Under the pieces are notes generated by a model. That model searched no databases. It was not told the origin of the DNA and was given only the letters and a program-made list of their open reading frames with translations. A stretch of 64,000 nucleotides of DNA from Salinicola acroporae (GTDB lineage: Bacteria; Pseudomonadota; Gammaproteobacteria; Pseudomonadales; Halomonadaceae). The stretch lies in contig NZ_PZJW01000004.1 in assembly GCF_003206615.1 (NCBI RefSeq), positions 357,083 through 421,082 on the forward strand. The letters run 5' to 3'. Every line of letters begins with the position of its first letter. The stretch's first letter is position 1. Below, one piece after another: positions 22,632-38,644 of the stretch. A program made the position numbers and the translations under genes.

Positions 22632-23675
22632 ATGTTTCTGCTGACGGCATTCGTCGTTCTCTCCATCGGTTTTTCCTTCGTCTGTTCGGTGCTGGAAGCC
22701 GCGCTGCTCTCGCTCACACCGAGTTATATCGCGCAGCTCAAGGACGACCGTCCCAGGCTTCACGACAAGCTCAACAAGCTCAAGTCGAATATTGATCGAC
22801 CGCTGGCGGCGATCCTGACCCTCAACACGATCGCGCACACCGTCGGTGCCACGGGTGTCGGCGCGCAGGTGGCCGTCGTGTTCGGCGATGCCCACGTGGC
22901 CATTGCCTCGGCCTTGATGACCTTCGGCATCCTGGTGTTTTCGGAGATCATCCCCAAGACCATCGGTGCGACCTACTGGCGCAGCTTGGCGCCTCTGCTG
23001 CCGCCGACGCTGCGCTTCATGGTGCTAGTGTTGCTGCCATTCATCTGGCTCTCGGAGATGATCACCAATCGTATCGCCAAGAACGAGGGCGACGTCGACA
23101 TGCGCGGCGAGATCAAGGCGCTGGCGCGCATCGGACTGGAAGAGAAGGCGCTGGATGCCGACGAGACCCGCACCATCACCAATATCCTCAATCTCCACGA
23201 GATTCCGGTGAAGAGCGTGATGACGCCACGGACCGTGTGTGAAACGGTGACGCCCGACATGAGCGTGGCCGAGTTCGACCAGCGCTATGGCAAGACGCAG
23301 TTCACGCGTTTCCCGGTGATGGATGGCGGAGAGGATGCCCTGGGCTACGTGCACAAGGCGGATACCTATCACGCCGAGGATGACGAGAGGCTGAAATCGT
23401 TGATGCACTCGGTCGCGATCATCGATGAGAACGACAGCGTCGAGCATGTCTTCACCGCCATGCTCAAGGATCACAACCACCTGCGCGTGGTCTACGACGA
23501 CCATGGCAACTGGGTCGGGCTGATCACCATGGAAGACGTGATCGAGACGATCCTGGGCCAGGACATCATCGACGAGACCGATAACGTGCATAACCTGCGC
23601 AAGTACGCCAAGCAGCGCTGGCTGAAGCGCGTGCGTCCGGGACTATCACCACGTTCCGGCGACGGGCCGGAGTAA
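22632..23675 (+). CDS. CNNM (DUF21) and CBS-pair membrane protein, hemolysin-family
   Basis: 347-residue inner-membrane protein of the CNNM/CorC-related family linked to magnesium or cobalt transport. The DUF21/CNNM domain (about residues 1-180) has three to four hydrophobic segments and the FSEIIPKTIGA motif near 101-111. Two CBS motifs follow; the first begins VMTPRTVCETV near 196 and the second ends LITMEDVIETILGQDIIDE near 297-315. The usual C-terminal CorC/HlyC transporter-associated domain is missing, so it is the short form. Its last 30 bases overlap the end of the convergent 2-hydroxyacid dehydrogenase gene. Confidence 0.9.
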   Translation: MFLLTAFVVLSIGFSFVCSVLEAALLSLTPSYIAQLKDDRPRLHDKLNKLKSNIDRPLAAILTLNTIAHTVGATGVGAQVAVVFGDAHVAIASALMTFGILVFSEIIPKTIGATYWRSLAPLLPPTLRFMVLVLLPFIWLSEMITNRIAKNEGDVDMRGEIKALARIGLEEKALDADETRTITNILNLHEIPVKSVMTPRTVCETVTPDMSVAEFDQRYGKTQFTRFPVMDGGEDALGYVHKADTYHAEDDERLKSLMHSVAIIDENDSVEHVFTAMLKDHNHLRVVYDDHGNWVGLITMEDVIETILGQDIIDETDNVHNLRKYAKQRWLKRVRPGLSPRSGDGPE

Positions 23676-24812
23676 CGGTCGCAGGATATCCCGGTCCACC
23701 GCCTGAACGTCCGTGCGCCCGCAGAAAGCCATCGACAGGTCGAGCTCGTCTCTGATGATATCCAGCGCGCGGGTCACGCCAGCCTCGCCGAGGGCGCCGA
23801 GCCCGTAGAGCATGGCGCGGCCGATGTAGACGCCTCGCGCGCCGAGCGCCAACGCCCTGAGCGCGTCCTGGCCAGAGCGTATCCCGCTGTCAAAATGAAT
23901 CTCCGTTGTCGCGCCCACCGCCTCGACGATCTCCGGCAGCGTGGTGATGGACGATGCCGCGCCGTCCAGCTGTCGGCCGCCATGGTTGGAGACGACTACG
24001 GCGTCGGCGCCGCTTTCCACCGCCAAATGGGCATCGTCGGGGTGCTGGATGCCCTTGACGATCAGGGGACCGCCCCAGCGCTGCTTGATCCACTCCACGT
24101 CCGCCCAAGACAGGGTGGGGTCGAACTGCTCCTGCGTCCAAGCCACCAATGATCGAATGTCGTCGACGCCGCGGGCGTGGCCGACGATATTGCCGAATTG
24201 ACGGTGTCGCGTGCCGAGCATGCCCAAGCACCAGCGCGGTTTGCAAGCGAGGTCGAGAAGGTGTTTCGGCGTGAGTCTTGGCGGCACCGAAAGCCCGTTC
24301 TTGCGGTCCTTGTGTCGTTGACCGAAGACCTGAAGATCCATGGTGACCATTAACGCCGAACAGCGAGCAGCGCGGGCGCGCTCGATCAGGTCCTCGCTGA
24401 ATCGACGGTCGCGCGTGACGTAGAGCTGAAACCAGAACGGATGGTGTCCGGTAGCGTTGGCCACCGCCTCGATCGAGCAGATACTCATCGTTGACAGCGT
24501 GAACGGGATGCCAGCGCGTTTTGCCGCCTGCGCCGCCAGGATCTCACCATCGGCATACTGCATTCCCGTCAGTCCGGTGGGGGCGATGGCCACCGGCATG
24601 GAGACGGATTGCCCCGCCATCGTGGAGTCCAAACTGCGGTGGGTGATGTCGCAGGCCACGCGCTGACGGAACTCGAGTCGCTGCAGATCGCACTCGTTGG
24701 CGCGATAGGTTGACTCGGTCCACGAGCCGCCATCGACGTAGTCGTAGAACATCCGCGGCACGCGTTTGCGTGCCAGACGGCGCAGATCTTCGATGCAGGT
24801 GACGTGGCTCAT
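23646..24812 (-). CDS. FMN-dependent 2-hydroxyacid dehydrogenase/oxidase
   Basis: 388-residue flavoenzyme of the L-lactate dehydrogenase/glycolate oxidase family. Active-site residues are all visible: Tyr in FYDYVDGG near residue 24, Tyr in FQLYVTRD near 123, Lys in LIVKGI, and His-Gly-Gly-Arg in SNHGGRQLDG. A continuous open frame runs far upstream, but it is a shadow of the next gene; ATG at 24810-24812 matches the family N-terminus. It is the last gene of the six-gene operon headed by the solute-binding protein, 26 bases after the flavin monooxygenase-like gene. The substrate is probably a 2-hydroxy acid released from the imported compound. Lactate itself is possible but no lactate permease is near. 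Confidence 0.88.
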   Translation of the reverse strand: MSHVTCIEDLRRLARKRVPRMFYDYVDGGSWTESTYRANECDLQRLEFRQRVACDITHRSLDSTMAGQSVSMPVAIAPTGLTGMQYADGEILAAQAAKRAGIPFTLSTMSICSIEAVANATGHHPFWFQLYVTRDRRFSEDLIERARAARCSALMVTMDLQVFGQRHKDRKNGLSVPPRLTPKHLLDLACKPRWCLGMLGTRHRQFGNIVGHARGVDDIRSLVAWTQEQFDPTLSWADVEWIKQRWGGPLIVKGIQHPDDAHLAVESGADAVVVSNHGGRQLDGAASSITTLPEIVEAVGATTEIHFDSGIRSGQDALRALALGARGVYIGRAMLYGLGALGEAGVTRALDIIRDELDLSMAFCGRTDVQAVDRDILRPLLRPVAGTW

Positions 24813-24838
24813 GACGACGTGGCGCTCACGTGGATCGC

Positions 24839-26089
24839 TCAAGCGCGTTCGTAAGCCATGTAGGCATTCTGCAGCGCGATGTGGTCGGCCACGTACTTGG
24901 CGTCGTGCCAGACCCCGTAGATGAACGACGAGGCCCGATTGACCAGATTGGGCAGGCCCAGAAAATAGATACCGCTCTCGGCGGAGATGCCACGCTTGTG
25001 GAACGGCAATCCCGCGTCGTCGAAGGCGTTGACTTGCAGCCAGCTGAAGTCGAATTGAAAGCCGGTCGCCCACAGCACGGTGGTAATGCCTTCGGCTTTC
25101 AGGTCGATTTCGAGGATCGGGGAGGTGAGGCAGTCGGGGTCGGGCAGGAGCTCCCAGGCTTCCGGCTCCGGCGGGAAATCCAGACCATTCTGCGCGATAT
25201 ACGCATCGGCTTCGCGCAGCACGTCGAAGTAGGCCTGGTCGCCCTGGGCGATGTTCTCCGCCAGTCCCTCGTCGAAGCGCAAGCGTCCCGCCTCCCAGGC
25301 ACGGGTCAGGCCTACCAGCGTGATGCCGGCGTGGGCGAGCCGGCGGAAGTCCACGGTCCGGCCGCCTTCGTAGCCGCTGACCGCGAAGGCGACATGCGCT
25401 TTTTTCGGGCGGATACGTACTTCGTCCCACAGACCCAGGGCACCCAGCCACCAACAGTAGTCGCGCCCGCGATACGCGCGCGGTGGCCGATAATGCTCGC
25501 CCACCGACAGATAGACCCGCCGACCCGCCTGGCGCAACTCCTCGGCGATCTGTGAACCGGACGCGCCCGCGCCGACGACCAGCACGCCGCCATCGGGTAG
25601 CTGCTCGGGGTTCTTGTACGCCGAGGAGTGCAACTGCTGCACGTCGGCCGTTGCTGGAATGATGCGAGGGAAGGTCGGCTTCTGGAAGGGGCCGGTCGCC
25701 GCGACCACGTTGTCCGCCTCGTACTCGCCCTCGGAGGTCTCGACCCGGAACCCGCGTCGCCCTGTCAGGCGCTCCACCCGTTGCACCTCGATCCCGGTGC
25801 GAACCGGGGCCTTCAGCATCTCCGCGTAGGTTTCGAAATAGTCGGCCATGCGCTCCTTCGGCGGGAAGGCGTCGGGTGAAACGCCCTCGAACGCGAGCGT
25901 CGGAAAACGGTCGTGCCAGGCGGGCCCGTTGGCCACCAGGGAGTCCCAGCGCTCGGAACGCCAGCGCTCGGCGATGCGGGCGCGCTCTAGCACGATATGG
26001 GGAATGTTCATGAGCGATAGGTGCTCGCTCATGGCGATGCCTGCCTGGCCGGCACCGACCACCAGCGTGTTGATTCTCTCGACTGTCAT
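24839..26089 (-). CDS. flavin monooxygenase-like FAD/NAD(P) oxidoreductase (CzcO type)
   Basis: 416-residue two-dinucleotide-domain flavoprotein. The FAD motif VVGAGQAGIAMSEHL is at residues 9-23 and the NAD(P)H motif VVGAGASGSQIAEEL near 164-178, with an ATG-type LWATGFQFDF near 345-354. The canonical FxGxxxH fingerprint of FMOs is not exact (LHSSAY stands in that place), as in CzcO-like proteins. The ATG at 26087-26089 has AGGAA six bases ahead. Predicted to hydroxylate or N-oxygenate a small organic substrate. It sits between the DUF1028 and FMN dehydrogenase genes in the transporter operon, which suggests a catabolic step. Substrate unknown. Confidence 0.82.
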   Translation of the reverse strand: MTVERINTLVVGAGQAGIAMSEHLSLMNIPHIVLERARIAERWRSERWDSLVANGPAWHDRFPTLAFEGVSPDAFPPKERMADYFETYAEMLKAPVRTGIEVQRVERLTGRRGFRVETSEGEYEADNVVAATGPFQKPTFPRIIPATADVQQLHSSAYKNPEQLPDGGVLVVGAGASGSQIAEELRQAGRRVYLSVGEHYRPPRAYRGRDYCWWLGALGLWDEVRIRPKKAHVAFAVSGYEGGRTVDFRRLAHAGITLVGLTRAWEAGRLRFDEGLAENIAQGDQAYFDVLREADAYIAQNGLDFPPEPEAWELLPDPDCLTSPILEIDLKAEGITTVLWATGFQFDFSWLQVNAFDDAGLPFHKRGISAESGIYFLGLPNLVNRASSFIYGVWHDAKYVADHIALQNAYMAYERA

Positions 26090-26246
26090 GCAAGTTTCCT
26101 GAAGGGCTTGAAGCCCCCGTTGTGACGCGTGGAACGTATGCGGCATGTGGATGGGGTGCAGCACGTGACCCCGGCGTGCCGTGTGGATCGGGTATGGCGA
26201 CGGCCAACGCTCGCATGGGCCATGTCGATCGGCGCCAACCGCTGTC

Positions 26247-26921
26247 TCATTCGTTGCCCGGGACGCCGTAGCTGGGCGCCTGGGTCGGGTCGAATGCGCG
26301 GGTGAGGTAGTCCTGCATCTGAGGCCGATAGGCGGCCCAGAGCGTGGCCAACTGCTCGATTGGCGCCTCGTCCGCCCAGTCCACGCGCAAATCGACGATC
26401 GGCCAACTCGGCTCCCCGACCACCAGCAGCGCCGCCGAATGTACCGGCCCGGCTTCACCCCCGGCAGTCATTGCCGCCTGCATCGCCGCGATCAAGCGGT
26501 CGGCCAGCGGGCCCCGGTGGGTCTCGAACGCTCGCACCAGTACCTCGACCACGTCACGGCTGGCCAACAGATTGCCGGCACCGACGCACTGCTCGCCTGC
26601 GACGGCGTGGTGGCAGCCCAGCGTCTCGTCGCCGCTGAAGTGGGCGGTGCGACCTTGTGCGTCGAGCACCGCCAATTGCCGATATTGGCAATGGGCATCG
26701 GTAGCCAGCGCCGCGTCCCGTGCCTGCGCCGGGGATGCGCCCTTGGCCAGACGCGCCAGCACTCGCTCGCCGAGTGCGGGTAGTGTCACGTTCTGGGTGG
26801 ATACCGCCCCGATACCGGGACGCAGCCAGGGACACCGGGCCCCCACGGCGATACTCGAGGAACTGATGGCGATCCCCATCTGTCCGGTCTCGGCGCAACG
26901 CCCCGTGATGGAAAAGGTCAT
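26247..26921 (-). CDS. DUF1028 family protein
   Basis: 224-residue protein of the DUF1028 family, which has an Ntn-hydrolase-like fold and no settled function. Diagnostic are the N-terminal TFSITGRC-TGQMGIAISSSS block, GARCPWLRPGIGAVSTQN, and the GAGNLLAS motif near residue 117. DUF1028 genes often lie near Rid genes and peptide or amine transporters; here a Rid gene is about 9 kb away in the partner operon. AGGAGAG stands ahead of the ATG at 26919-26921. It lies 38 bases after the second permease gene. Confidence 0.88.
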   Translation of the reverse strand: MTFSITGRCAETGQMGIAISSSSIAVGARCPWLRPGIGAVSTQNVTLPALGERVLARLAKGASPAQARDAALATDAHCQYRQLAVLDAQGRTAHFSGDETLGCHHAVAGEQCVGAGNLLASRDVVEVLVRAFETHRGPLADRLIAAMQAAMTAGGEAGPVHSAALLVVGEPSWPIVDLRVDWADEAPIEQLATLWAAYRPQMQDYLTRAFDPTQAPSYGVPGNE

Positions 26922-26959
26922 GCGTCGTCTCTCCTGGGTGAGGTCACGCGAGCGCGCAT

Positions 26960-27778
26960 TCAGCGCGGTGCGTCGACGTTGAGAATCCGGCCCAGCCCGA
27001 GAAAACGGTTGGCCAGGGTGAGCAGGGTGGCCGTGATCACGATGTAGATCACCGACAGCGCGGCCAGCGTCGGGTCAGCGAACTCGCGAACATAGTTGTA
27101 CATCGCCACCGGCAGCGTCTGGGTGCGTTGGGTCGTGATGAACAGTGATGCGGTGAATTCGTTGAACGAGAGAATCGCGGCGAACAGCCATCCGCCGAAC
27201 AGGCCTGGCAGCATCAGCGGAACCGTGATGGTCCACACCACCCGCAGTGGCGAGGCACCGAGGCTGGCCGCCGCCATCTCGACCCGCTGGCCCAGGTTCT
27301 GAAGCGAAACGTACAGACTGCGCAGCACGAACGGCAGCACGAGCACGACATGGCAGAAGATCACCAGCGCGTAGCCGCGTCCCAGATTCAGCTGTGCCAC
27401 CAGCATCAGCAGGCCGAGACCGATAGTGAAATGCGGGATGAATAGCGGCGACAGCAGGATGCCCTCGAGCACGGCCTTGAAGCGGAATGTGTAGCGGTGG
27501 ATGACGATTGCCAGGGTCGTGCCGATGACCACGGCGAGCGTGGAGGCCCAGGCGGTGACGATCAGCCCCGAGTAGAAACCGCTTCTGAAGTCGTCGTAGC
27601 TCACGGCGCGTTCGAACCAGCGCAGCGACCAGCCCTTGGGCGGGAAGAAGAGCACCGAGGTGCTGCTGAACGAGGAGATGACTACCACCACCGTTGGCAG
27701 CAGCACGAAGAGCAGGATCAGGGCCACCAGGAGGCGTCCGGCGTAGCCCAGCCATCGATCACGGGTCGAGCGAGTCAT
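26960..27778 (-). CDS. polyamine-type ABC transporter permease (PotC-like)
   Basis: 272-residue inner-membrane permease with six hydrophobic segments. The EAA loop reads AAASLGASPLRVVWTITVPLMLPG near residues 168-191 (conserved Gly in SLGAS), where the ATPase docks. The SSTSVLFFPPKGWSLRWFE segment after the first membrane helix is typical of the PotC/YdcV class. It begins one base after the stop of the other permease gene, so the two are translationally coupled. It needs an ATPase, and the only candidate nearby is the one at 34380. Confidence 0.9.
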   Translation of the reverse strand: MTRSTRDRWLGYAGRLLVALILLFVLLPTVVVVISSFSSTSVLFFPPKGWSLRWFERAVSYDDFRSGFYSGLIVTAWASTLAVVIGTTLAIVIHRYTFRFKAVLEGILLSPLFIPHFTIGLGLLMLVAQLNLGRGYALVIFCHVVLVLPFVLRSLYVSLQNLGQRVEMAAASLGASPLRVVWTITVPLMLPGLFGGWLFAAILSFNEFTASLFITTQRTQTLPVAMYNYVREFADPTLAALSVIYIVITATLLTLANRFLGLGRILNVDAPR

Positions 27779-27779
27779 T

Positions 27780-28634
27780 TCAGTGGATCCCTACGTTCTG
27801 CAGCGGTCGGGTCATACGCTTGAGCGCGGCCAGCAGCACTACCGTCATCGCTAGGCCGGCTATGCTCAGGGCGGCAGCGAAGGGGAAGTTCAGCGACGAA
27901 AAGCCCAACTGGTAGACCAGCGTGGCGACGGTGCTCACGCGTCCGCCACCGATCAGCTGCGGTGTGGCGAAGGCGCTGAACGTCCAGGCGAAGGCGGTCG
28001 TCACGCTGGCGACGATACCCGGCAGCGACAGCGGCAGCGTGATGGTCAGGAAGGCCCTGAAGGGGCTCGCGCCCAGACTGGTGGCGGCCTTTTCGTAGGC
28101 GATGTCGATGTGCGACAGGCCGGTCGCCAGCATGAGTACCATGATCGGCATGGTGACGTGGACCAGCGCCAGCACCACGCCGGTGTCGGTGAACATCAGT
28201 TGCAGCGGTTTGTCGATCAGCCCGATGGCCAGCAGCAGGCTGTTGAGGAAGCCGCTGTTGCCAAGCACGATGATCCACGAGTACGTCCGCACCACCTCGC
28301 CGAGGAACAGCGGCGTGATGGCGATGATCAGGATGCACGACTTCAACCATGCGGTGCGTGTGCGTACCAGCGTATAGGCCAGTGGATAGCTCAGCAGCAG
28401 CCCGAACAGCGCGGTCTTGAAGCTCAACCACACGGTATTGAGAAAGGCGCGTGCGTAGAGGCCCTTCAACAGGTCCTGAAAGTTGTCGAGCGTGAAGCCG
28501 CCCACGTCCAGCGAGCCTGGAATGTACGCGCGCACGCTGTACTGAAGCACGGTCAGCATGGCGATCGTCAGGCCGAGTGCGGTGAGTATCGCCGGCAGCA
28601 GGAACCAACCGACGAAGGCAGGTTTACGAGTCAT
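27780..28634 (-). CDS. polyamine-type ABC transporter permease (PotB-like)
   Basis: 284-residue inner-membrane permease with six hydrophobic segments and the EAA loop KAATSLGASPFRAFLTITLP near residue 185. The ATG at 28632-28634 has GGAA six bases ahead and is preferred over an ATG four codons upstream. Partner of the PotC-like permease that follows after one base, and of the binding protein upstream. The substrate is not given by the permease; PotB-type systems carry polyamines, amino-acid derivatives and other small cations. Confidence 0.9.
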   Translation of the reverse strand: MTRKPAFVGWFLLPAILTALGLTIAMLTVLQYSVRAYIPGSLDVGGFTLDNFQDLLKGLYARAFLNTVWLSFKTALFGLLLSYPLAYTLVRTRTAWLKSCILIIAITPLFLGEVVRTYSWIIVLGNSGFLNSLLLAIGLIDKPLQLMFTDTGVVLALVHVTMPIMVLMLATGLSHIDIAYEKAATSLGASPFRAFLTITLPLSLPGIVASVTTAFAWTFSAFATPQLIGGGRVSTVATLVYQLGFSSLNFPFAAALSIAGLAMTVVLLAALKRMTRPLQNVGIH

Positions 28635-28666
28635 GGGGCTTTCCATCGAGCGCGGTCTGGAGAAAC

Positions 28667-28693
28667 GACCACCGGGGGAGAGCCTCGGCGGTC
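28667..28693 (-). other. imperfect hairpin between binding-protein and permease genes
   Basis: Arms 28667-28677 and 28683-28693 match at 9 of 11 positions around a 5-base loop, between the stop of the binding protein and the start of the first permease. A stem at this junction commonly lowers permease expression relative to the binding protein. Confidence 0.35.
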
Positions 28694-28721
28694 GGGTCTT
28701 GAGCCTTCGGAGTCGCCATGA

Positions 28722-29747
28722 TCAATGCGTCATGATGTTTTCCGAGAACCACTTGCGCCACTCGGCGGTCATCTCGGCCCGCAGCTTGGGATCGGTGTCC
28801 AGCGTGGCGTCCCACTGCTCGGCCGTCGTCAGCATGCCCGGCAGTTTGGCGATTTCCGGGTCGACCGTCGCATTGGTCACGACCGGACTGCCGTTGTTGA
28901 TCTCGGCGATTTTCGCCTGGACGTCCGGCGACAGTGCGATGTTCATGAACTGGTAGGCCAGATCGGCGTGTTCGCTGCCCTTGTTGATGCCCATGGCATC
29001 GATGCCAAGCACGGCGCCTTCCTTTGGCATCGCCAGTTCGATGTCCACGCCTTCGTCCATCATGTGGTAGGCGTTCATCGACAGCAGCAGCTGTACCGGC
29101 GTCTCCCCGGTGGCGATCAACTGCTGGCTGTTGGCGTCGTTGGTATAGAACGCCTTGATATTGGGAATGAGCGCCTTGAGCTTGTCCTGGCCGGCCTCCC
29201 AGTGTTCGGCGTCGGCACCTTCGAGCTTGGCGGCCACAGCGATGATATGGCTCGGGTCCCAGTCGGGTAGTGCGATGGTGCCCTCGAGCTCGGGATTCCA
29301 CAGGTCTTCCCAGCTGTCGAAGGTGATGTCGTCCGGCACCAGGTCCGGGCGATAGCCGATGGTGTAGACGTAGCCCCACACGCCGATGTGATTCGGGCTC
29401 AGCTTGGCCTGGTGCACGAGATTCTTGGCATTGGGGATCTTGCTCATGTCCAGGTCCTCGAGCAGGCCGTCGTTGGCGTAGAGCCAACCCACGTGGGACG
29501 TGGTAAAGGTGATATCGGTTTCGGCACTGCCAGCCAGCTTGGCCTTGTTGAGACGGTCGATGGTGCCGCCGGTCACGTATTCGACCTCGACGCCGGTCTG
29601 TCGGGTGAACTCCTGGCCGATGGCCTCGTCGATGAGATCGCGGAAACTGCCGCCCCAGGTGCTGACGATCAACTTGTCGGCAGCGTTCGCACTTGAGATG
29701 CCCATCAGGGTGGCACTCAGCAGGGTCAGAGCGATGGCTTTATGCAT
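28722..29747 (-). CDS. ABC transporter periplasmic solute-binding protein (PotD-type)
   Basis: 341-residue periplasmic protein with a clear signal peptide (MHKAIALTLL, cleavage after ANA near residue 23). The mature protein starts ADKLIVSTWGGSFRDL and contains TDITFTTSHVGWLY, GVWGYVYTIGYRPD and a C-terminal tryptophan-rich end. This is the extracellular solute-binding family 1/PotD-like pattern. An acidic residue follows SPNHIG as in amine binders, but the ligand cannot be read off. The ATG at 29745-29747 begins the signal; the open frame runs much further upstream but has no signal there. First gene of a six-gene operon facing the LysR gene. Confidence 0.9.
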   Translation of the reverse strand: MHKAIALTLLSATLMGISSANAADKLIVSTWGGSFRDLIDEAIGQEFTRQTGVEVEYVTGGTIDRLNKAKLAGSAETDITFTTSHVGWLYANDGLLEDLDMSKIPNAKNLVHQAKLSPNHIGVWGYVYTIGYRPDLVPDDITFDSWEDLWNPELEGTIALPDWDPSHIIAVAAKLEGADAEHWEAGQDKLKALIPNIKAFYTNDANSQQLIATGETPVQLLLSMNAYHMMDEGVDIELAMPKEGAVLGIDAMGINKGSEHADLAYQFMNIALSPDVQAKIAEINNGSPVVTNATVDPEIAKLPGMLTTAEQWDATLDTDPKLRAEMTAEWRKWFSENIMTH

Positions 29748-30150
29748 TGTTTTAGCTCTCGTTCGATGGTCGAAAGGCGTGGTTTCGGGCAGCTCGTGAT
29801 GCCGTCGTATCGCGTGAACGTCGACGGCATGCGACGCGGTCACTTGAGGCATGGCGATCAGCCGTTCACCGTTCGAGGCCATCATGGCCTCGCGCGGCGG
29901 GATCGGTAAAACAGCCTTTGCCGTTGCCTTGCGTAGGAATTTCCGATGCAGCATGGCGCGGGGCGGCGCCAGGCTTGTGGGCATCGCCGGCGCCTGTGCA
30001 GGCACTGACGCGTCGAGACACGCTGTCGTATGATCGAGGCCGAGAGGCGGGGCGCTCGTGGTTACACGCCGCGGCCACCGCTGCATGCGCCGTCTTGCGA
30101 ACTCGCCATCGTCGCTTCGAAAAGCGCTATCTTCGTATCGAGAACCCGCC
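29748..30150. promoter_or_regulatory. divergent promoter region with 19-bp palindrome
   Basis: 403 bases between the binding-protein gene and the LysR gene, with no convincing gene. The perfect inverted repeat CGAGGCCAT-C-ATGGCCTCG lies at 29874-29892. A smaller one, TTCGA-TGG-TCGAA at 29762-29774, lies just ahead of the binding-protein ribosome site. Both are candidate LysR sites. Confidence 0.5.
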
Positions 30151-31125
30151 ATGCTCAGTCGAATCACACAACGCCAACTCGAATACTTTGTCGCCTCCGG
30201 CGAGGCAGGCAGTCTGCATGGCGCGTCCGAGCGCCTGCATGTCTCCTCGCCCTCGATCTCGGCCGCGATCAGCCATATCGAGTCCGAGCTGGGTGTTCAG
30301 CTCTTCGTGCGGCATCACGCCCAGGGGGTCTCGCTCACGGCGATTGGCCGCGAGGTGATGAAAGAGGCGAAGCTGATCCTCGACCAAGTGAGCAACCTCT
30401 ACACCATCGCCTCGGAGTCGCTGAACACCATTCGGGGGCCCCTGCGTGTCGGCTGCTTCGGATCGCTGGCACCGATGATCACGCCCGAGCTGGTGTTCGG
30501 TTTCGGGCGGGCGTTTCCAGGGGTTCGCATCAGTCAGTTCGAGGGCGACTACGAGCAGCTATTGGCCAAGCTGCGAAGCGCCGAGATCGACATCGCCCTG
30601 ACCTACGATCTGGTATCGAACGACGATATCGATTTCCAGCCGCTGGCCCGGCTGCCGCCCTACGTGATGGTGGGAGAACATCACCCGTTCGCGAATCTGT
30701 CGGCGGTGACGATGGACGATCTGGAAACCCACCCCATGGTCCTGCTGGACATGCCGTGGAGCCGGGAATACTTCCTCAGTCTGTTCCTGCCTGCCGGGGT
30801 CACGCCGAACGTCGTGATGCGGTCGAGCAATCTCGAGGTGGTTCGGGCGATGGTCGCCAACGGCGTCGGCTACAGCATCGCCAACGTGCGCCCCAAGGCC
30901 AACCTGTCACTGGACGGCAAGCGTCTGATTCGCGTGAGGCTGGCAGGCGAGCACCGGCCCATGCAGTTGGGCTATGCCGTCGCCAGGAACGGGCAGCTGT
31001 CGCGCGTGGTCAGCGCCTTCGCCGAGCGCTGCCGGATGTTCGTGTCCGATCAGTACATTCCCGGTATGGCGGCGCCGAGCTTCTTCGACCCGCATTCGGT
31101 CCGTGCGATCGAGGATGTGGGCTGA
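30151..31125 (+). CDS. LysR-family regulator of the two transporter/catabolic operons
   Basis: 324-residue LysR regulator. The winged helix at residues 1-65 contains RQLEYFVASGEAGSLHGASERLHVSSPSISAAI, and an effector-binding domain follows from about 90. The product begins at ATG 30151, chosen for match to the family N-terminus; the ribosome site is weak. The gene is divergent from the binding-protein operon and convergent with the Rid-ATPase operon, so it sits between the two halves of one transporter system and is the obvious regulator of both. The co-inducer is unknown, presumably the transported compound or a breakdown product. Confidence 0.9.
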   Translation: MLSRITQRQLEYFVASGEAGSLHGASERLHVSSPSISAAISHIESELGVQLFVRHHAQGVSLTAIGREVMKEAKLILDQVSNLYTIASESLNTIRGPLRVGCFGSLAPMITPELVFGFGRAFPGVRISQFEGDYEQLLAKLRSAEIDIALTYDLVSNDDIDFQPLARLPPYVMVGEHHPFANLSAVTMDDLETHPMVLLDMPWSREYFLSLFLPAGVTPNVVMRSSNLEVVRAMVANGVGYSIANVRPKANLSLDGKRLIRVRLAGEHRPMQLGYAVARNGQLSRVVSAFAERCRMFVSDQYIPGMAAPSFFDPHSVRAIEDVG

Positions 31126-31238
31126 GGGCGCCGGCGACAGCGAACACTGGGACTGACATCGGGGATCGAGAGTGGCGCGGGCTCGGGACGGTTTCCCTGG
31201 ATCGTGGGACAGTCGTCGTAAATCCAGTAACCGTGGAT

Positions 31239-32171
31239 CTAGTAGCCGCGAGCCGGACTCACCTGATGCCGCACCGTTTCGCCGCGCTCGAGACGGCCGA
31301 TATTGTCGGCGATTTGGCGCGCCGCGGACTCGGGAATGGCCACCGAGGCGAGGTGCGGCGTGATCAGTACGTTGTCCAATTGCCACAAGGGATCTTCCGG
31401 CGGCAGCGGCTCACGGTCGAACACGTCCAGCGTGGCCTCGGCAATACGCCGGCTGGCCAGGGCCTCGGTCAGCGCCCGCTGGTCGACGATCGCGCCTCGG
31501 GAGACGTTGATGAAGCAGGCCCCCGGTGGCAGTAGCGCCAGGCGCTCGGCATTCAGAAGCCCACGAGTCTCGGGCGTCAGCGGCAGCATCGTGACCAGGA
31601 TATCGCTCGCGGCGATAAAGTCGTCGAGCCGTGGCATGCCGTCGACGCAGGTCACACCTTCCAGCCGTTTGGGCGAGCGCGACCAGCCGCGGACATCGAA
31701 GCCCTGACGGACCAGCTCCCGCGCGGCGCAGGCGCCCAGCTCGCCGAGTCCCAGCACGCCGACGCGGATACTCCCCGGTAGCCGGGGGTGGAGATAGTGC
31801 CAGCGTTGCTCGCGCTGGGCGCGTTCGAAGGCGGGGATGTCGCGGGCGTAGCGGAGGACGGCGAAGAGCACGTAGCTTGCCATCATCCGCCCCATGTCGG
31901 GGTCGGAGACGCGGGTGATCGGAATGGCCGGCAGGTCGTCGCGACCGACCAGCGAGTCGACGCCGGCGCCCAGGTTCACCAGCAGCTTCAGATTACGGTA
32001 GCGGGCGAAGAAACCCTCAGGCGGTTTCCAGGCCAGCGCATAGAGCACGCTGTCCGCATCGTCGACATCCGCCGCCTGACGGATTCGTACCTGTGGCAGC
32101 AGCGGCGAGAGCAGATCGCGCCACGCCTCGAAGCTGTCGAACTGACTGTAGAACACCAGCGTCGGCGTCAT
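31239..32171 (-). CDS. D-2-hydroxyacid dehydrogenase (GhrA-like)
   Basis: 310-residue NAD(P)-dependent reductase of the glyoxylate/hydroxypyruvate reductase A group. The dinucleotide loop is VGVLGLGELGACAARELV near residues 139-156. The catalytic triad is the Arg in NVSRGAIVD, the Glu in DREPLPPEDPLW and the His in ITPHLAS. The length is right for GhrA. Its start overlaps the AroQ-like stop by ATGA, so the two are coupled. It is the last gene of the operon that starts with the Rid gene. It probably reduces a 2-keto acid to a 2-hydroxy acid, the reverse of what the FMN enzyme in the partner operon would do with the other stereoisomer. Confidence 0.88.
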   Translation of the reverse strand: MTPTLVFYSQFDSFEAWRDLLSPLLPQVRIRQAADVDDADSVLYALAWKPPEGFFARYRNLKLLVNLGAGVDSLVGRDDLPAIPITRVSDPDMGRMMASYVLFAVLRYARDIPAFERAQREQRWHYLHPRLPGSIRVGVLGLGELGACAARELVRQGFDVRGWSRSPKRLEGVTCVDGMPRLDDFIAASDILVTMLPLTPETRGLLNAERLALLPPGACFINVSRGAIVDQRALTEALASRRIAEATLDVFDREPLPPEDPLWQLDNVLITPHLASVAIPESAARQIADNIGRLERGETVRHQVSPARGY

Positions 32172-32614
32172 GCCCGGTCCTCCAGCAGCTCCGCCACGGC
32201 CGACAGCGCCAGGCGATAGCCGGTGGCGCCCAGGCCCGCGACGACACCGGTCGCTGCCTTCGACACGTAGGAGTGGTGGCGGAAGCTTTCGCGCTGCCAG
32301 ATATTGCTCATGTGGACTTCGATGATCGGGCCGTCGAAGGCGAGCAGCGCGTCGAGAATCGGTACCGAACTGTAGGTGAGTCCCGCGGCGTTGATGATAA
32401 GGGCATCGGCGCTCTGACGCGCTTCCTGAATCCAGTCCACCAGCACGCCCTCGTGGTTGCTCTGGCGGAACTCGAGCGTCAGTTCGAGCGCGCCGGCGTG
32501 GCGCTGGCAACCCTGCTCTATGCTGGCGAAGCTCTCGCTGCCGTAGGTGCCATGCTTGTCGAGGCCATAGAGATTGGCATTGGGACCGTTGAGAAAGTAG
32601 ACGCGATGGGACAT
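32168..32614 (-). CDS. AroQ-like protein (type II dehydroquinase fold) with altered active site
   Basis: 148-residue relative of type II 3-dehydroquinate dehydratase. Conserved blocks are LNGPNANLYG (residues 8-17), QSNHEGVLVDWIQEA (51-65), IIEVHMSNIWQRE (97-109) and FRHHSYVS. Numbering happens to match the M. tuberculosis enzyme. Tyr24, Asn75, Glu99, His101 and Arg112 are kept, but the catalytic-loop Arg19 is Asp and His81 is Tyr. The normally invariant NPGA-HTS loop reads NAAGLTYSS. Shikimate-pathway activity is therefore doubtful, and the setting inside a catabolic operon also argues against a biosynthetic role. CGGAG precedes the ATG at 32612-32614. Confidence 0.85.
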   Translation of the reverse strand: MSHRVYFLNGPNANLYGLDKHGTYGSESFASIEQGCQRHAGALELTLEFRQSNHEGVLVDWIQEARQSADALIINAAGLTYSSVPILDALLAFDGPIIEVHMSNIWQRESFRHHSYVSKAATGVVAGLGATGYRLALSAVAELLEDRA

Positions 32615-32629
32615 GAGGGCTCCGGAATC

Positions 32630-33259
32630 TCAGGGCGAGGGCTGCGTGGCGCGCAGGGCCGGGTGCTGGCTCAAGCGCTCGAACCAGGCCGCGGCGCGGG
32701 GATGGTCGCGTCGCCAGTCGAGATCGGCGAAGCGGAAGTCGAGATAGCCCAGGGCGCACCCGATGGCGATCACGCCGATGTCATCTGGCTGGTCGCTGAG
32801 GGTGGGTGACTGCGCATCGATCTCGGCCAGTGCGGCACGAACCTTGGTCAACTGTGCCTCGGCCCAGGGCGGCCACTGAGCCGTTGCCGGGCGGGCCGTG
32901 AATTCGTAGCGCGCCAGCAACGCGGCATCGATCAGGCCATCTCCCAACGCCTGGCGCGTCAGGCTGATCCAGCGTGCATCGCCCTCAGTGGGGAACAGCG
33001 AGCCGCCGGCGACGGTGTTCAGGTATTCGCAGATGACGCGGCTGTCGTAGAGCGATATGCCCCCGGGTGTGCGCAGCGCCGGCACCTTGGCCAGCGGATT
33101 GAACGTGGCGATGCGCTCGTCGCGCTTCACCGGATGGGCGGCGGAATCGAGTCGCTCGATGCGATCGGCCAGACCCAGAACCTGGGCACTGATCATGACC
33201 TTGCGCACGAAGGCGGAAGTCGAGGCGTAGTACAACAGGAAACGAGTCGAATCGCCCAT
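32630..33259 (-). CDS. glutathione S-transferase family protein
   Basis: 209-residue cytoplasmic protein with an N-terminal thioredoxin-like domain (about residues 7-85) and an all-helical C-terminal domain. The glutathione-binding signature is PLAKVPALRT near 55-64 followed by LYDSRVICEYL near 70-80, with the Ser of DSR contacting the gamma-glutamyl group. The first strand has YASTSAFVRKV, so Ser is the likely activating residue. AAGGAG precedes the ATG. It is 27 bases after the quinone oxidoreductase gene and 15 bases before the AroQ-like gene, in one operon. A role in removing or isomerising a reactive intermediate is inference. Confidence 0.88.
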   Translation of the reverse strand: MGDSTRFLLYYASTSAFVRKVMISAQVLGLADRIERLDSAAHPVKRDERIATFNPLAKVPALRTPGGISLYDSRVICEYLNTVAGGSLFPTEGDARWISLTRQALGDGLIDAALLARYEFTARPATAQWPPWAEAQLTKVRAALAEIDAQSPTLSDQPDDIGVIAIGCALGYLDFRFADLDWRRDHPRAAAWFERLSQHPALRATQPSP

Positions 33260-33286
33260 GGGGGCTCCTTGTTCTTGTCGGGCGCC

Positions 33287-34330
33287 TCAATCAGCACCGG
33301 GGACCAGCAGCACCTTGCCGATATTCTCGTTGGCTTCGAGGCAGCGATGAGCCTCGGCGGCTCGCGAGAGCGGTAGCGCGGCGTGAATCCATGGACGCAC
33401 GTCGCCCGAGGCTAGCCACGGCAGCAGATGCTGGCGGATGGCCGCGGCCAGGCGTGCCTTCTCCTCGTGGCTCTTGGGGCGCAACGTCGAGGAGGTCAGG
33501 TTCAGGCCCTTGCGCATCAGCACCGACAGATCCAGCTCAATGTGCTGGCCCTGCATGAACGACAGGCTGACGTGGCGCCCGCCTGGGGCCATGGCCGCCA
33601 GATTCCTGGCCACGTAGGGTCCGCCGACGTTGTCCAGCACCACGTCGACGCCGCGGCCTTCGGTCATGTCAGCGATGACATCGACGAAATCTTCCTCGTG
33701 GCGATCCACGGCGCGCCAGACGCCGAGCTTTTGCAACGCGGCGATCTTGACTGCGCCACCTGCGGTCGCGATCACGCGGGCGCCGGCGGCATGAGCGCAC
33801 TGCACGGCGAAGGTTCCCACGCCGCTGGCGGCGCCGTGAATCAGAACGGTCTCGCCCGCCGTCAGCCGCCCGCGCTCGAACAGGTTGTGCCACACGGTGA
33901 AGGCCGCTTCGGGAACGCCCGCGGCGTCCTCCAGCGAGAGGCCGGCGGGCACGGGCAGGCAGTGAGCGGCGACGGCCATGCAGTATTCGGCGTATCCGCC
34001 GCCGCCGAGCAGTGCCATTACGCGTTCGCCGACACTGATGTCGGTCACGCCGTCACCCACGGCAACGACGGTGCCGGCGGCTTCCAGACCCAGCACGTCG
34101 GTGGTGCCTGGCGGTAGCGGCGCACCGCTGCGCTGCATCAGGTCCGGGCGGTTCACGCCGGCCGCCGCGACACGAACGAGGACTTCGCCTCGGCCCACGG
34201 CGGGTAGCGCGCGCTTTACACAGGTGAGAACGTCGGGGGCGCCGGGTTGACGGGCGATCACGGCCAGCATGGTATCGGGCAAGGGCAAGGGCAAGGGCAA
34301 GGGCAAGGGCAAGGGCAAGGGCAAGGGCAT
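33287..34330 (-). CDS. NAD(P)H quinone oxidoreductase (PIG3-like) with a repeat-encoded N-terminus
   Basis: 347-residue zinc-independent medium-chain reductase of the PIG3/QOR group. The core starts at MLAVIARQPGAPDVL. It has AAAGVNRPDLMQR near residue 63 and the cofactor loop IHGAASGVGTFAVQ near 168-181, and lacks the zinc-ligand cysteines. The ATG at 34328-34330 has AGGAG nine bases ahead and is itself the end of a hexanucleotide array, so the protein begins Met-Pro followed by eight Leu-Pro pairs. The next ATG (34268-34270) would give a normal family N-terminus but has no ribosome site, being preceded by the repeat. It is third in the Rid-ATPase operon. Confidence 0.85.
   Translation of the reverse strand: MPLPLPLPLPLPLPLPLPDTMLAVIARQPGAPDVLTCVKRALPAVGRGEVLVRVAAAGVNRPDLMQRSGAPLPPGTTDVLGLEAAGTVVAVGDGVTDISVGERVMALLGGGGYAEYCMAVAAHCLPVPAGLSLEDAAGVPEAAFTVWHNLFERGRLTAGETVLIHGAASGVGTFAVQCAHAAGARVIATAGGAVKIAALQKLGVWRAVDRHEEDFVDVIADMTEGRGVDVVLDNVGGPYVARNLAAMAPGGRHVSLSFMQGQHIELDLSVLMRKGLNLTSSTLRPKSHEEKARLAAAIRQHLLPWLASGDVRPWIHAALPLSRAAEAHRCLEANENIGKVLLVPGAD
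34277..34324 (+). repeat. hexanucleotide tandem repeat (GGGCAA)8
   Basis: Eight exact GGGCAA units, with a ninth variant unit (GGGCAT, 34325-34330) that forms the start codon of the minus-strand quinone oxidoreductase gene. On the coding strand this is ATGCCC followed by eight TTGCCC. Unit number can change by slippage without changing frame. Confidence 0.95.
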
Positions 34331-34379
34331 GGCGGGGCGCTCCTGTTCAGCGCTTATCGTATTGAGAATGGCGTGTCGA

Positions 34380-35540
34380 TCAAGCAGACGTTGCGTCGGC
34401 GGCGAAGGCACAGATGCCGTCGTCTTCGAAGGCCAGACCGGCGACCGCGCCCACGGGCCAGCGAGTCAGGGATTCGACCCCCGAGCGGCGCACGAACAGC
34501 CGCGCCTGATCCAGCGACGGCACGTCCAGATGAACGTCGACGTGATCGCCCTGGAACACGTGATTGACCACCGTGCCGGTCAGTAGCGTGTCGCCGTCCA
34601 GTGGCACCAGATGAATGTTTTCGGGACGCGCGTAGACCGCCAGACGGGCGCCCACCGAGGCATGAATGCGATCGACGGGCAGGCGCAGCGTGGCGTCGCC
34701 CAGCTCGATGTTGGCGGCGTCGTCACGGCTCAGATAGCGCCCCGGGAGCACGTTGGCATCACCGACGAAACCAGCCACGAACGGGTCTTCCGGGGAGCGA
34801 TAGATGGCATCCGGCGTGCCGATCTGGCGCACGTGCCCGGCGGACATCACCACCACGCGGTCGCTCATGCTCAACGCTTCGCCCTGGTCGTGGGTGACGA
34901 AGACCGTGGTTACGCCCAGCTTGCGCTGAATCTCCTTCAACTCGAGTTGCATCGACAGGCGCAGGTTCTTATCCAGCGCCGAGAAGGGTTCGTCGAGCAG
35001 CAGCACCTTGGGCCGAATCACCAGGGCACGGGCGAGGGCGACTCGCTGCTGTTGACCGCCGGAGAGCTCGCGCGGCATACGCTCGCCGAAGCCCTCAAGC
35101 TTTACCAGCGCCAGCGCCTGGGCGACCCGTTCATCGATCTCTGCCTTCGGCGTGCCGCGCATGCGCAGCCCATAGCCGACATTCTTGACCACACTCATGT
35201 GAGGGAAGAGCGCGTAGTTCTGGAACACGATGCCGATTTCCCGCTGGTAGGGCGGGGTCTCGGTAACCAATTGGCCATCAATGAAGATCTCGCCGTTGTC
35301 GGCTTCGAGAAAGCCGGCCATGAGGTTCAAGAGCGTCGTCTTGCCGCAGCCCGATGGGCCGAGAAGCGTGACGAATTCACCCTCGCGGATCTTCAGCGAG
35401 ATCTTCTGCAGCGCGATCGCATCACCGAAGCGTTTGAGAATGCCGTCGAGTTGCACCGCGACACGCTCGGGCATGGTGGCTGGCGAGCCGACGGCGGACG
35501 CCGGGGCGGCGGAAGGTGGACTCAGGGATACGGTCGCCAC
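34380..35540 (-). CDS. polyamine-type ABC transporter ATPase (PotA-like)
   Basis: 386-residue ATPase. Walker A is GPSGCGKTT, the signature LSGGQQQRVALARAL, Walker B VLLLDEPFSALD and the H-loop FVTHDQGEA. A C-terminal regulatory OB domain (TOBE) follows from about residue 265. A GTG start at 35540 is chosen because GGAG stands six bases ahead; an upstream ATG would overlap the Rid gene. It lacks permeases of its own and is the only free ATPase in the window, so it most likely drives the permeases at 26960-28634, about 6 kb away in the partner operon. It begins 31 bases after the Rid stop. Confidence 0.9.
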   Translation of the reverse strand: MATVSLSPPSAAPASAVGSPATMPERVAVQLDGILKRFGDAIALQKISLKIREGEFVTLLGPSGCGKTTLLNLMAGFLEADNGEIFIDGQLVTETPPYQREIGIVFQNYALFPHMSVVKNVGYGLRMRGTPKAEIDERVAQALALVKLEGFGERMPRELSGGQQQRVALARALVIRPKVLLLDEPFSALDKNLRLSMQLELKEIQRKLGVTTVFVTHDQGEALSMSDRVVVMSAGHVRQIGTPDAIYRSPEDPFVAGFVGDANVLPGRYLSRDDAANIELGDATLRLPVDRIHASVGARLAVYARPENIHLVPLDGDTLLTGTVVNHVFQGDHVDVHLDVPSLDQARLFVRRSGVESLTRWPVGAVAGLAFEDDGICAFAADATSA

Positions 35541-35571
35541 GGGCAGCTCCGATTGTTGGAAAGTTGGAGGG

Positions 35572-36012
35572 TCAGGGTGCTGGAGTGTCAGAGGAAACGG
35601 TGTCATCGGGGATGACGGCGATGACGTCGATCTCCATCAGCCACTGCGGCTGTCCCAGTGCCGAGACCACGAGCCCGGTGGAGATCGGATAGACACCCTT
35701 CAGCCATTTGCCGACCTCCTGGTAGACCGGTTCGCGGTAGCGTGGATCGATAAGGTAGGTGGTCGTCTTGACGATGTGCGAAAGGTCCGAGCCGGCCTCC
35801 TCCAGTAACTGCTTGACGTTCTTCATCGCCTGCTCTGCCTGGGCCCTAGGGTCGCCCAGGCCGACGAGGATGCCGTCGAAGTCGGTGCCGACCTGACCGC
35901 GAACGTAGATCGTATTGCCCGCCCGTACGGCCTGGCACAGGTCGTTGTCCAGCGACTGATTGGGATAAGTCTCTTTGGTGTTGAACATGCGAATGCGGGT
36001 ATGGGTGGGCAT
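35572..36012 (-). CDS. RidA-family protein lacking the catalytic arginine
   Basis: 146-residue trimeric Rid/YjgF-fold protein. RidA itself deaminates reactive enamines and imines using an Arg at position 105 of the E. coli protein. The matching place here, in YPISTGLVV, is Ser111, so it belongs with the Rid groups that lack that arginine. The rest of the fold is present (IYVRGQVGTD, AMKNVKQLLEEAG, MEIDVIAV). The ATG at 36010-36012 is chosen; an ATG 18 codons upstream lacks a ribosome site. It is the first gene of a six-gene operon, and DUF1028, a frequent Rid neighbour, is in the sister operon. Confidence 0.85.
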   Translation of the reverse strand: MPTHTRIRMFNTKETYPNQSLDNDLCQAVRAGNTIYVRGQVGTDFDGILVGLGDPRAQAEQAMKNVKQLLEEAGSDLSHIVKTTTYLIDPRYREPVYQEVGKWLKGVYPISTGLVVSALGQPQWLMEIDVIAVIPDDTVSSDTPAP

Positions 36013-36120
36013 GCCGGGCGACTCTCGAGGATCGGGATGGATCAAGCTTTGCATCCCGGCCGCCACGGCGAAACCAGCATTTACATAGGGTCATGCTTAG
36101 GAAAAGCCGAAGCGACCTTC

Positions 36121-36156: not shown

Positions 36157-36969
36157 TCAGATGACCTTCTTGCGCAGCCAGGCGGCCAACGCTTCGCCCA
36201 GGATGACCAGGGCGATGATCGCCAACAGGATGGTGGCGACGGTCTGCCACGCCAGCGTGTCGATGGCGCCCTGCAGGATCACGCCGATGCCGCCGGCGCC
36301 GACCAGGCCGAGTACGGTCGATTCGCGCAGGTTGATGTCCCAGCGCAGGATGCCGACCGCGAAGAATGTCGGCATGACCTGCGGCACGATCGCGTAGAGC
36401 ACCACCCTGGCCCGCGAGGCGCCGGTCGCTTCCAGCGCCTCCACCTGACGGCGGTCGATCTCCTCGATTGCCTCGCCCAGCAGCTTGCCGAGAAAGCCGA
36501 TCGACCGGAACATGATCGCGATGATCCCCGCCAGCACGCCGGGGCCGAAGATCGCCACGAACAGCAGGGCCCAGATCAGCGTATTGACCGACCGGCTCGA
36601 GACCAGGATGAAACGCCCCAGCCATAGCGTGAAGCGGTTGGGGGTCGTGTTCTGGGCCGCGATGTAGGCGATCGGCAGCGACAGGAAGACGGCCACGAAC
36701 GTGGCGATGGTGGCGATGTTGAGCGTCTCGACCAGTGCCCACAGGATCGCCTGCAGGTTGCTGACGTCCGGCGGCACCATGCGCCCGAACAGGTCGCCGA
36801 CCTGGGCCGGGGCGTCCCACACCCAGGGCCAGATGATGTCGATGCTCTCCACTGCCCACACCACCGCCGCCGCCACGACCAGCAGCGTCAGGAAGCGCTT
36901 CCAGCGCTCACGCGGGGTATAGCGCGCCCAACTGCGCTCGGCAACGCTTGGTGTCGTTGGCAGCGTCAT
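36157..36969 (-). CDS. phnE: phosphonate-type ABC transporter permease (second PhnE)
   Basis: 270-residue inner-membrane permease with about six hydrophobic segments. PhnE-family motifs include LPIAYIAAQNTTPN, RSVNTLIWALLFVAIFGPG, and the EAA-like EALEATGASRARVVLYAIVPQ near residues 174-194. GLVGAGGIGVILQGAID near the C-terminus is also typical. Its ATG overlaps the stop of the first PhnE by four bases. Together the two PhnE proteins probably form a heterodimer. Last gene of a phnD-phnC-phnE-phnE operon. Confidence 0.9.
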   Translation of the reverse strand: MTLPTTPSVAERSWARYTPRERWKRFLTLLVVAAAVVWAVESIDIIWPWVWDAPAQVGDLFGRMVPPDVSNLQAILWALVETLNIATIATFVAVFLSLPIAYIAAQNTTPNRFTLWLGRFILVSSRSVNTLIWALLFVAIFGPGVLAGIIAIMFRSIGFLGKLLGEAIEEIDRRQVEALEATGASRARVVLYAIVPQVMPTFFAVGILRWDINLRESTVLGLVGAGGIGVILQGAIDTLAWQTVATILLAIIALVILGEALAAWLRKKVI

Positions 36970-38578: not shown

Positions 38579-38595
38579 GGGAGATCCTCTGCTGA

Positions 38596-38628: not shown

Positions 38629-38644
38629 CCTGTGGTTCGGCGGA

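Follow-up and report, generated by a model that had tools for sequence, protein, structure and literature searches.

A 64,000-nucleotide stretch of the Salinicola acroporae genome (contig NZ_PZJW01000004.1, referred to here as the window) carries 13 genes in two operons around a LysR regulator gene, which probably form a single catabolic regulon, under LysR control, for a compound with an imidazole ring. Its flavin monooxygenase (FMO), Rid and DUF1028 proteins, together with an M20 hydrolase encoded at an unlinked site, match the hinF-hinL-hinH-hinG trunk of the Pseudomonas histamine pathway. This trunk appears to be extended by AroQ-like, GhrA-like and LldD-like proteins, a quinone oxidoreductase-like protein (QOR), a glutathione S-transferase-like protein (GST) and an ATP-binding cassette (ABC) importer of the PotABCD type. 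The original prediction, made from the DNA sequence alone, had stated that no described pathway uses this set. This did not hold for the core, which corresponds to the known hinFLHG trunk leading from imidazole-4-acetate to aspartate; the new part is the extension, and no description of the extended cluster, nor any paper on DUF1028, was found in the open-licence literature searched.

Organization of the locus

The ORF calls and profile searches confirmed all 13 genes, arranged as two minus-strand operons of six genes flanking the plus-strand LysR gene. As predicted, both permeases lie in one operon and a lone PotA-type ATPase in the other: family searches of the 13 genes detected neither an ATPase in operon 1 nor a permease in operon 2. 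The number of enzymes and accessory proteins had been given as nine; eight were counted, in addition to the LysR regulator.

23646-24812, minus strand, operon 1: LldD-like FMN-dependent 2-hydroxyacid dehydrogenase/oxidase, 388 aa (PF01070, E 2e-135)
24839-26089, minus strand, operon 1: flavin monooxygenase, 416 aa, of the AroQ-associated clade FMO-B and a paralogue of the HinF type (PF13738, E 1.7e-28; PF00743, E 1.1e-9)
26247-26921, minus strand, operon 1: DUF1028 protein, 224 aa, probable HinH equivalent (PF06267, E 2.2e-68)
26960-27778, minus strand, operon 1: ABC permease 2 (PF00528)
27780-28634, minus strand, operon 1: ABC permease 1 (PF00528; a start 12 bases upstream was used in the search)
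28722-29747, minus strand, operon 1: periplasmic binding protein (SBP) of the PotD/SBP_bac_8 type, 341 aa (PF13416; longer ORF searched)
30151-31125, plus strand: LysR regulator, 324 aa, probably HinK-like (PF03466/PF00126)
31239-32171, minus strand, operon 2: GhrA-like D-2-hydroxyacid dehydrogenase, 310 aa (PF02826; longer ORF searched)
32168-32614, minus strand, operon 2: AroQ-like protein of the type II dehydroquinase family, 148 aa, with Asp19 and Tyr81 (PF01220)
32630-33259, minus strand, operon 2: GST (PF13409/PF13417)
33287-34330, minus strand, operon 2: QOR, a zinc-type MDR protein (PF00107/PF08240)
34380-35606, minus strand, operon 2: PotA-type ABC ATPase (PF00005/PF08402)
35572-36012, minus strand, operon 2: Rid protein, probable HinL equivalent (PF01042)

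The genes for the GhrA-like and AroQ-like proteins overlap by 4 bases, and the first start of the PotA-type ATPase gene falls within the 3' end of the Rid gene. An 856-aa ORF at 23646-26216 was recognized as a mechanical extension of the FMN_dh gene over the monooxygenase gene in another frame. The LldD-like protein scored 411 bits with NF008398 (cut-off 376, the reference being 5 residues shorter), and the GhrA-like protein, with 224 bits, remained under the NF012013 cut-off of 403.

Conservation in relatives and the shared transporter

Named genomes were scanned with an alignment of AroQ-like proteins, and the best 80 of 570 confirmed loci were analyzed, counting genes within 10 kb of the AroQ-like gene; a few loci were cut by contig ends. 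According to the titles, 28 of the 80 come from Pseudomonas, and the loci do not therefore count as independent samples. Of the 80 loci, 75 had a monooxygenase, either FMO or HpaB, and 74 had LysR, for which the identity threshold was a loose 33%. Rid was present in 72, DUF1028 in 68, M20/ArgE in 60, GhrA in 56 and PotA in 54; the ABC set was complete in 51, and QOR was found in 46, GST in 37, the LldD-like gene in 12 and an HbpS-like gene in four.

Salinicola corii (L029) carries all 13 genes in identical order with 93–100% identity, and S. corii L3 (L070) is the nearest named relative among these loci, its AroQ-like protein being 98% identical. The set recurs for the most part in Klebsiella, Pantoea, Pseudomonas, Variovorax and others. 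A Klebsiella plasmid and a Pantoea megaplasmid share the arrangement Rid-DUF1028-ArgE-ATPase-QOR-GST-AroQ-GhrA, LysR, SBP-permease-permease-FMO, followed in Klebsiella by an LldD-like gene; certain Pseudomonas clusters combine AroQ and FMO-B with the trunk but lack both GhrA and the PotD-type transporter. With the 13 genes retained in S. corii and the bulk of them recurring elsewhere, the association is more than chance. In the 19–20-kb stretches around six other AroQ genes (L043–L048), used as a control, none of the set was found save one LysR match of 25% identity. Each of the 37 distinct genomes with the AroQ-like gene that were searched for DUF1028 (two checks of 20, three genomes being common) contained it, the best matches having identities from 43% upwards and two of them one in-frame stop, and Rid was present in all 20 genomes checked. 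Separation of the two operons in relatives, named in the original prediction as a ground for abandoning it, did not appear; the operons were found together.

The SBP and the two permeases occurred without a PotA-type ATPase in none of 51 loci, and in 25 loci permease 2 and the ATPase are adjacent on one strand. This consistent pairing, combined with the joint occurrence of the operons in relatives, indicates that one transporter is common to both, as had been proposed, and the view of the two operons as one system is well supported. No other ATPase serving the permeases came to light, PotA pairing with them in 51 of 51 loci, and no search was made for other ATPases.

The importer had been described as polyamine-type, and as far as its type is concerned this stands: the PotABCD subunit set (SBP, two permeases, PotA-type ATPase) is complete, and with TIGR01187, a polyamine subfamily model, the ATPase scored 363.6 bits, above the cut-off of 355.6. 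A polyamine as the substrate is unlikely. The scores lie below the equivalog cut-offs for both PotD (82 of 582 bits, with an over-long SBP start) and PotA (392 of 482 bits). The closest solved chains to the SBP were 4edp, then PotD and others. In the alignment with PotD, two of the residues which we take to be ligand positions differ, Glu171 being replaced by His and Trp255 by Gly, whereas Asp168 and Asp257 are kept. The locus resembles the PotABCD spermidine/putrescine importer in subunit types and overall architecture, but here the ATPase lies in a separate operon, and the importer departs from PotABCD in part of its ligand-site residues and in the enzymes linked to it.

The core resembles the hinFLHG trunk

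In the available text of PMC8231116, the hinF-L-H-G genes of P. aeruginosa PAO1 (PA5393–PA5390) are responsible for the conversion of imidazole-4-acetate into aspartate. The available text of PMC6467879 presents HinF as an FAD-monooxygenase (EC 1.14.13.5), HinL as an enamine deaminase, HinH as an amidase, HinG as the EC 3.5.1.8 amidase and HinI as an aspartate ammonia-lyase; PMC5619798 does not mention PA5391–PA5393. Judging from operon order and labels, HinH is probably a DUF1028 protein.

DUF1028 matches at E 0.001 or better were detected in 15 of 194 genomes of the order, two of them weak. In seven stretches without AroQ (L030–L033 and L036–L038), FMO, Rid and DUF1028 genes lie within the same 20 kb; M20 adjoins DUF1028 in five of the seven, and the FMO gene is on the opposite strand in L037 and L038. 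A further stretch, L034, has HpaB instead of FMO. The order FMO-Rid-DUF1028-M20 was found in L031–L033 and, with M20 labelled ArgE, on annotated Burkholderia and Ideonella plasmids; Paraburkholderia sprentiae has FMO-Rid-DUF1028, and Acetobacter and Pseudonocardia have close variants. As this order equals that of hinF-L-H-G in PAO1, the core was taken as a hin trunk. The window Rid is 95–96% identical to the Rid proteins of L031–L033 (the comparison being with these loci, not with a named HinL) and the window DUF1028 is 67–69% identical to theirs.

In the window genome DUF1028 was found in a single copy, as was the FMO at E 1e-60. An M20 homologue lies on another contig (C23), 65% identical to the copy of the Klebsiella cluster, and an aspartase homologue elsewhere in the genome is 57% identical to that of Aminobacter; aspartase-type genes are located within the Aminobacter and Pseudonocardia loci themselves. 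The Aminobacter pUSP1 version of the cluster also contains a HutD-family gene (L054, 8319-8882). The hinA, hinC and hinD families (histamine permease, aminotransferase and aldehyde dehydrogenase) are absent from the 13 genes, the rest of the genome not having been searched for them.

The locus shares with hinFLHG of P. putida U and P. aeruginosa PAO1 an FAD monooxygenase, Rid, a third hydrolase (presumably DUF1028), an M20-type hydrolase and, probably, LysR control. It differs in the separate clade of its FMO, the unlinked M20 gene, the lack of hinA, hinC and hinD among the 13 genes and the additional AroQ-like, GhrA-like, LldD-like, QOR, GST and importer genes. In the Rut pyrimidine pathway, too, a Rid protein and hydrolases act after a monooxygenase, but that monooxygenase and those hydrolases belong to other families and the window Rid scored 28 bits vs the RutC cut-off of 169.

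Monooxygenases separate according to AroQ

The FMO tree (72 rows) was split with 100/100 support into clades of 14 and 58 rows. Of the smaller clade, 13 rows come from AroQ-free stretches and one from L094, which holds both types; the larger one consists entirely of AroQ loci, including L052 and L053 with AroQ of 66 and 67%. The window FMO is 59–62% identical to the FMOs of AroQ-free, hin-ordered loci, no named HinF being part of the comparison, and is separated from them with 100/100 support. The HpaB tree (30 rows) also showed a 100/100 split, into 23 rows, all from AroQ loci, and seven rows comprising two AroQ-free stretches, four from loci with both HpaB types and one Aminobacter exception. 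Two unrelated monooxygenase families are thus each divided, with one exception, into an AroQ-linked and an AroQ-free form.

The DUF1028 tree (89 rows) lacks this split, the AroQ-free label requiring eight changes, at least five of which are forced by well-supported branches. Both monooxygenase types stand beside a single DUF1028 gene in L094, L123, L125, L130 and L136. Because the monooxygenases separate by AroQ and DUF1028 does not, the split is read as a different, AroQ-linked substrate joining a shared trunk. Among 20 genomes, both FMO types were kept in S. corii, P. marginalis and Stutzerimonas azotifigens, and P. simiae had FMO-B only; two HpaB types were found in three Bradyrhizobium loci and Halotalea. 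The S. corii genome has a second, AroQ-free FMO-Rid-DUF1028 cluster (L030, 9198-11601) about 45 kb from the main copy, beside genes for an SBP_bac_3 protein and a permease.

The AroQ-like protein has an altered active site

The active-site survey covered 86 AroQ-like sequences, all with 65% identity or more and among them the window copy. Tyr24, Asn75, Asp88, Glu99, His101, Ser103, Arg108 and Arg112 were invariant. Position 19 was Asp in 84 of the 86 (Gly and Glu in the remaining two) and position 81 was Tyr in all of them. Among 11 more distant AroQ sequences, Arg19 was present in 10 and His81 in nine, the sequence with Asp and Tyr being the Aminobacter copy. The window genome has another AroQ, with Arg19 and His81, which is 43% identical to the AroQ-like protein.

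In the available text of PMC6011038, Arg19 of type II dehydroquinase is essential, as are Tyr24 and Asp88, and is the main enolate-stabilising residue; the carboxylate is contacted by Ser103, Asn75 and the main chain, the C1 hydroxyl by His101 and Asn75 and the C5 hydroxyl by His81 and Arg112. The AroQ-like protein belongs to the same family (PF01220) as type II 3-dehydroquinate dehydratase and has its Tyr24, Asn75, Asp88, His101, Ser103, Arg108 and Arg112, but not its Arg19 and His81, so that the hydroxy-carboxylate end of the site is kept and the ketone end is changed. The site has probably been rewritten for another job than that of a dehydroquinase. An ordinary shikimate or quinate role was considered and lowered, because the genome has a separate Arg19/His81 AroQ and the active site of the cluster copy is changed.

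Given the retained hydroxy-carboxylate end and the GhrA-like and LldD-like enzymes nearby, a reasonable guess is that the AroQ-linked substrate is an imidazole 2-hydroxy acid, perhaps imidazole-lactate, which is reported as a microbial metabolite in the available text of PMC12583827. A more far-reaching proposal, put forward tentatively, is that the AroQ-like protein could be a new enzyme derived from type II dehydroquinase, in which the retained pocket, Tyr24 as the base, His101 as the acid and Asp19 binding the imidazole would serve to dehydrate or otherwise process an imidazole 2-hydroxy acid (imidazole-lactate or an oxidised ring product). It would then define a widespread, partly plasmid-borne imidazole-acid pathway that feeds into the known histamine trunk, with parallel recruitment of two unrelated families of monooxygenase.

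The LysR regulator and candidate operators

The best solved matches of the window LysR protein were 6m5f and 3fzv, both titled only "probable transcriptional regulator"; we take 6m5f to be HinK. The operator matrix was built from four distinct Rid-upstream sites, and the pieces used as the null were taken from these loci themselves and contained true sites. Two candidates were identified around the operons:

36094-36114, minus strand: candidate GCTT-N11-AAGC LysR-type box about 100 bp upstream of Rid; score 30.9, the best in the 64-kb window, the site itself being in the matrix
29930-29950, no strand assigned: palindrome TGCATCGGAAATTCCTACGCA, some 203 bp upstream of SBP, a candidate LysR box; weak (p ~0.027)

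The Rid-upstream box recurs at an unchanged position in S. corii and in the majority of the set's Pseudomonas loci; the number of loci with such a site before Rid (38 of 48 at p<0.02) is circular, the matrix having been built from Rid sites. The SBP-upstream palindrome is in the same place in S. corii, two unrelated window sites score higher, and palindrome-like sites at p 0.027–0.032 precede SBP in 12 of 28 relatives and in the window. Upstream of FMO, sites at p<0.02 were detected in 13 of 45 loci (0.9 expected), ten of them at 139–191 bp and three at 107 bp. No site at p<0.02 was found upstream of the PotA, GhrA, DUF1028 and LldD-like genes, and the FMO and DUF1028 genes of the window had none. 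In AroQ-free loci, box-like sites precede FMO in two of nine tested (p ~0.025). Shuffled windows gave 6 to 25 sites with a score of at least 9, and an exact-dyad motif search was only partly useful. The HinK box is given as T-N11-A in the available text of PMC10912698. A response of the two operons to different signals, which the original prediction had named as a further ground for abandoning it, was approached through these operator sites: with a strong box before Rid and a weak one before SBP, common control of both operons is likely.

Proposed pathway and alternative explanations

We infer the following reactions, their order and the substrate. The ABC importer, composed of the SBP, the two permeases and the PotA-type ATPase of the other operon, would take up the substrate, for which imidazole-lactate is the leading guess, and the flavin monooxygenase would oxidise its imidazole ring. 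DUF1028 and Rid would then open the ring and remove nitrogen from an imidazolone/formimino product, and the unlinked M20 (ArgE-like) hydrolase would free the amino acid, the chemistry being that of the hinF-L-H-G trunk from imidazole-4-acetate to aspartate. The AroQ-like, GhrA-like and LldD-like proteins may adapt this trunk to a 2-hydroxy or 2-keto acid side chain, and QOR and GST may handle an unsaturated intermediate. The oxygenation, the probable imine/enamine role of Rid and the enzymes for a 2-hydroxy/2-keto acid foreseen in the original prediction were supported.

Several observations weigh against this scheme. The window proteins were compared with hin-ordered loci, not with the hin proteins of P. 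aeruginosa or P. putida, and since the window FMO falls outside the clade of hin-ordered FMOs, its substrate may differ more than supposed; with different side chains, the trunk would not end in aspartate. The HinG-type M20 gene is not in the Salinicola cluster and is missing from L070 too. Twelve of the best 80 loci have no DUF1028 within 10 kb, some being cut by contig ends, and four distant DUF1028 genes (34–40%, L039–L042) have neither FMO nor Rid nearby. GhrA is missing from 24 and the LldD-like gene from 68 of the 80 loci, so that the 2-hydroxy-acid argument leans on variable genes. Aminobacter pUSP1 carries an HpaB of the AroQ-free clade beside its AroQ-like gene (47%). The labels on the DUF1028 tree are more clustered than in shuffles (11 changes with three groups vs a mean of 18.9; none of 200 shuffles as low), which related organisms would produce. 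No SBP-upstream site at p<0.02 was found in the 28 loci scanned.

Degradation of imidazole-4-acetate itself, with FMO-B and AroQ as another route for the HinF step and GhrA, LldD, QOR and GST cleaning up by-products, is unlikely, even though it accounts for several results. The eight label changes required by DUF1028, which does not separate AroQ from AroQ-free loci, are compatible with it, as are the Pseudomonas clusters in which GhrA and the PotD-type transporter are missing although AroQ, FMO-B and the trunk are present, and the box-like sites before FMO in AroQ-free loci. Maintenance of both FMO types in S. corii, P. marginalis and Stutzerimonas azotifigens and of two HpaB types in the Bradyrhizobium loci and Halotalea speaks against it, as two types in one genome or locus would be redundant for one substrate, and so does the same split in two unrelated monooxygenase families.

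A non-imidazole substrate, such as another N-heterocycle or a cyclohexenone imine of the mycosporine kind, with Rid, DUF1028 and M20 borrowed for imine/amide hydrolysis, is less probable still. HpaB-type monooxygenases often act on phenols, the normal substrate of AroQ is a hydroxylated cyclohexane ring, and GST, QOR, GhrA and LldD are not imidazole-specific, all of which would suit such a compound. This explanation is opposed by the identity of up to 96% between Rid and the Rid of hin-ordered loci, by the regulator's best solved matches, presumably HinK, and by the loci with both monooxygenase types beside a single DUF1028 gene. A mycosporine-type ring in particular was considered because of the combination of AroQ and Rid; the likeness to hin made it less probable.

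Uptake of a polyamine or betaine alongside an unrelated set of detoxifying enzymes, suggested by the likeness of the SBP and the ATPase to PotD and PotA and by the TIGR01187 score, is very improbable in view of the sub-equivalog PotD and PotA scores, the two changed PotD ligand positions and the linked enzymes, which resemble the hin trunk.

Neighbouring genes and cluster variants

A PhnD/PhnC/PhnE-type ABC transporter set (36157-39739) lies upstream of Rid on the same strand, separated by a 144 bp gap. It was considered as a member of the system and set aside as a neighbour, the four-gene set being found only in S. corii among the best 80 loci; in L144 there is a single phnC-like match, at 30%. 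A nearby gene for glucosylglycerol-phosphate phosphatase (Salt_tol_Pase), at 20479-21750, fits a halophile. A perfect 6-base tandem repeat of 8.8 copies (34277-34329) encodes an N-terminal Leu-Pro run in QOR, and the S. corii gene lacks this repeat.

Clusters of the Pseudomonas type often have a recurring add-on of a PhyH dioxygenase, a class II aldolase and an SBP_bac_3 importer protein (in 19, 20 and 18 of the best 80 loci, respectively), as in L099 (3964-7322) and L094 (1419-4777). A TRAP binding protein family was found in eight and an arylmalonate decarboxylase-family gene in five of the 80 loci. Such genes adjoin the cluster in some alphaproteobacteria and two Halomonadaceae loci (L146, 5012-8556; L035, 1929-5535; L124, 243-3846), the Halomonadaceae locus L035 holding both. 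Both modules may be other feeders into the same trunk.

Spread and significance

Among 72,556 plasmid records, 108 contained 80% or more of the Klebsiella cluster (13.3 kb). Any match to it was found in 180 records, of which 103 are from Klebsiella and 102 are typed conjugative. IS elements flank the cluster on the single Klebsiella plasmid inspected (L049, 7183-20488). Among 5,426 E. coli genomes, none had 80% of the cluster in one place; 2,511 had a match of any length, those among the matches listed being short save for one plasmid record with 56% in one place and a second place.

With this analysis, a cluster whose parts were annotated as unrelated becomes a single pathway open to testing, in which DUF1028, a family of unknown function in Pfam, gains a probable place in imidazole ring opening. 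It also flags a gene set annotated as 3-dehydroquinate dehydratase as probably doing something else. Given its presence in 108 plasmid records, the plasmid-borne Klebsiella form may matter for which host or microbial imidazoles such bacteria can use.

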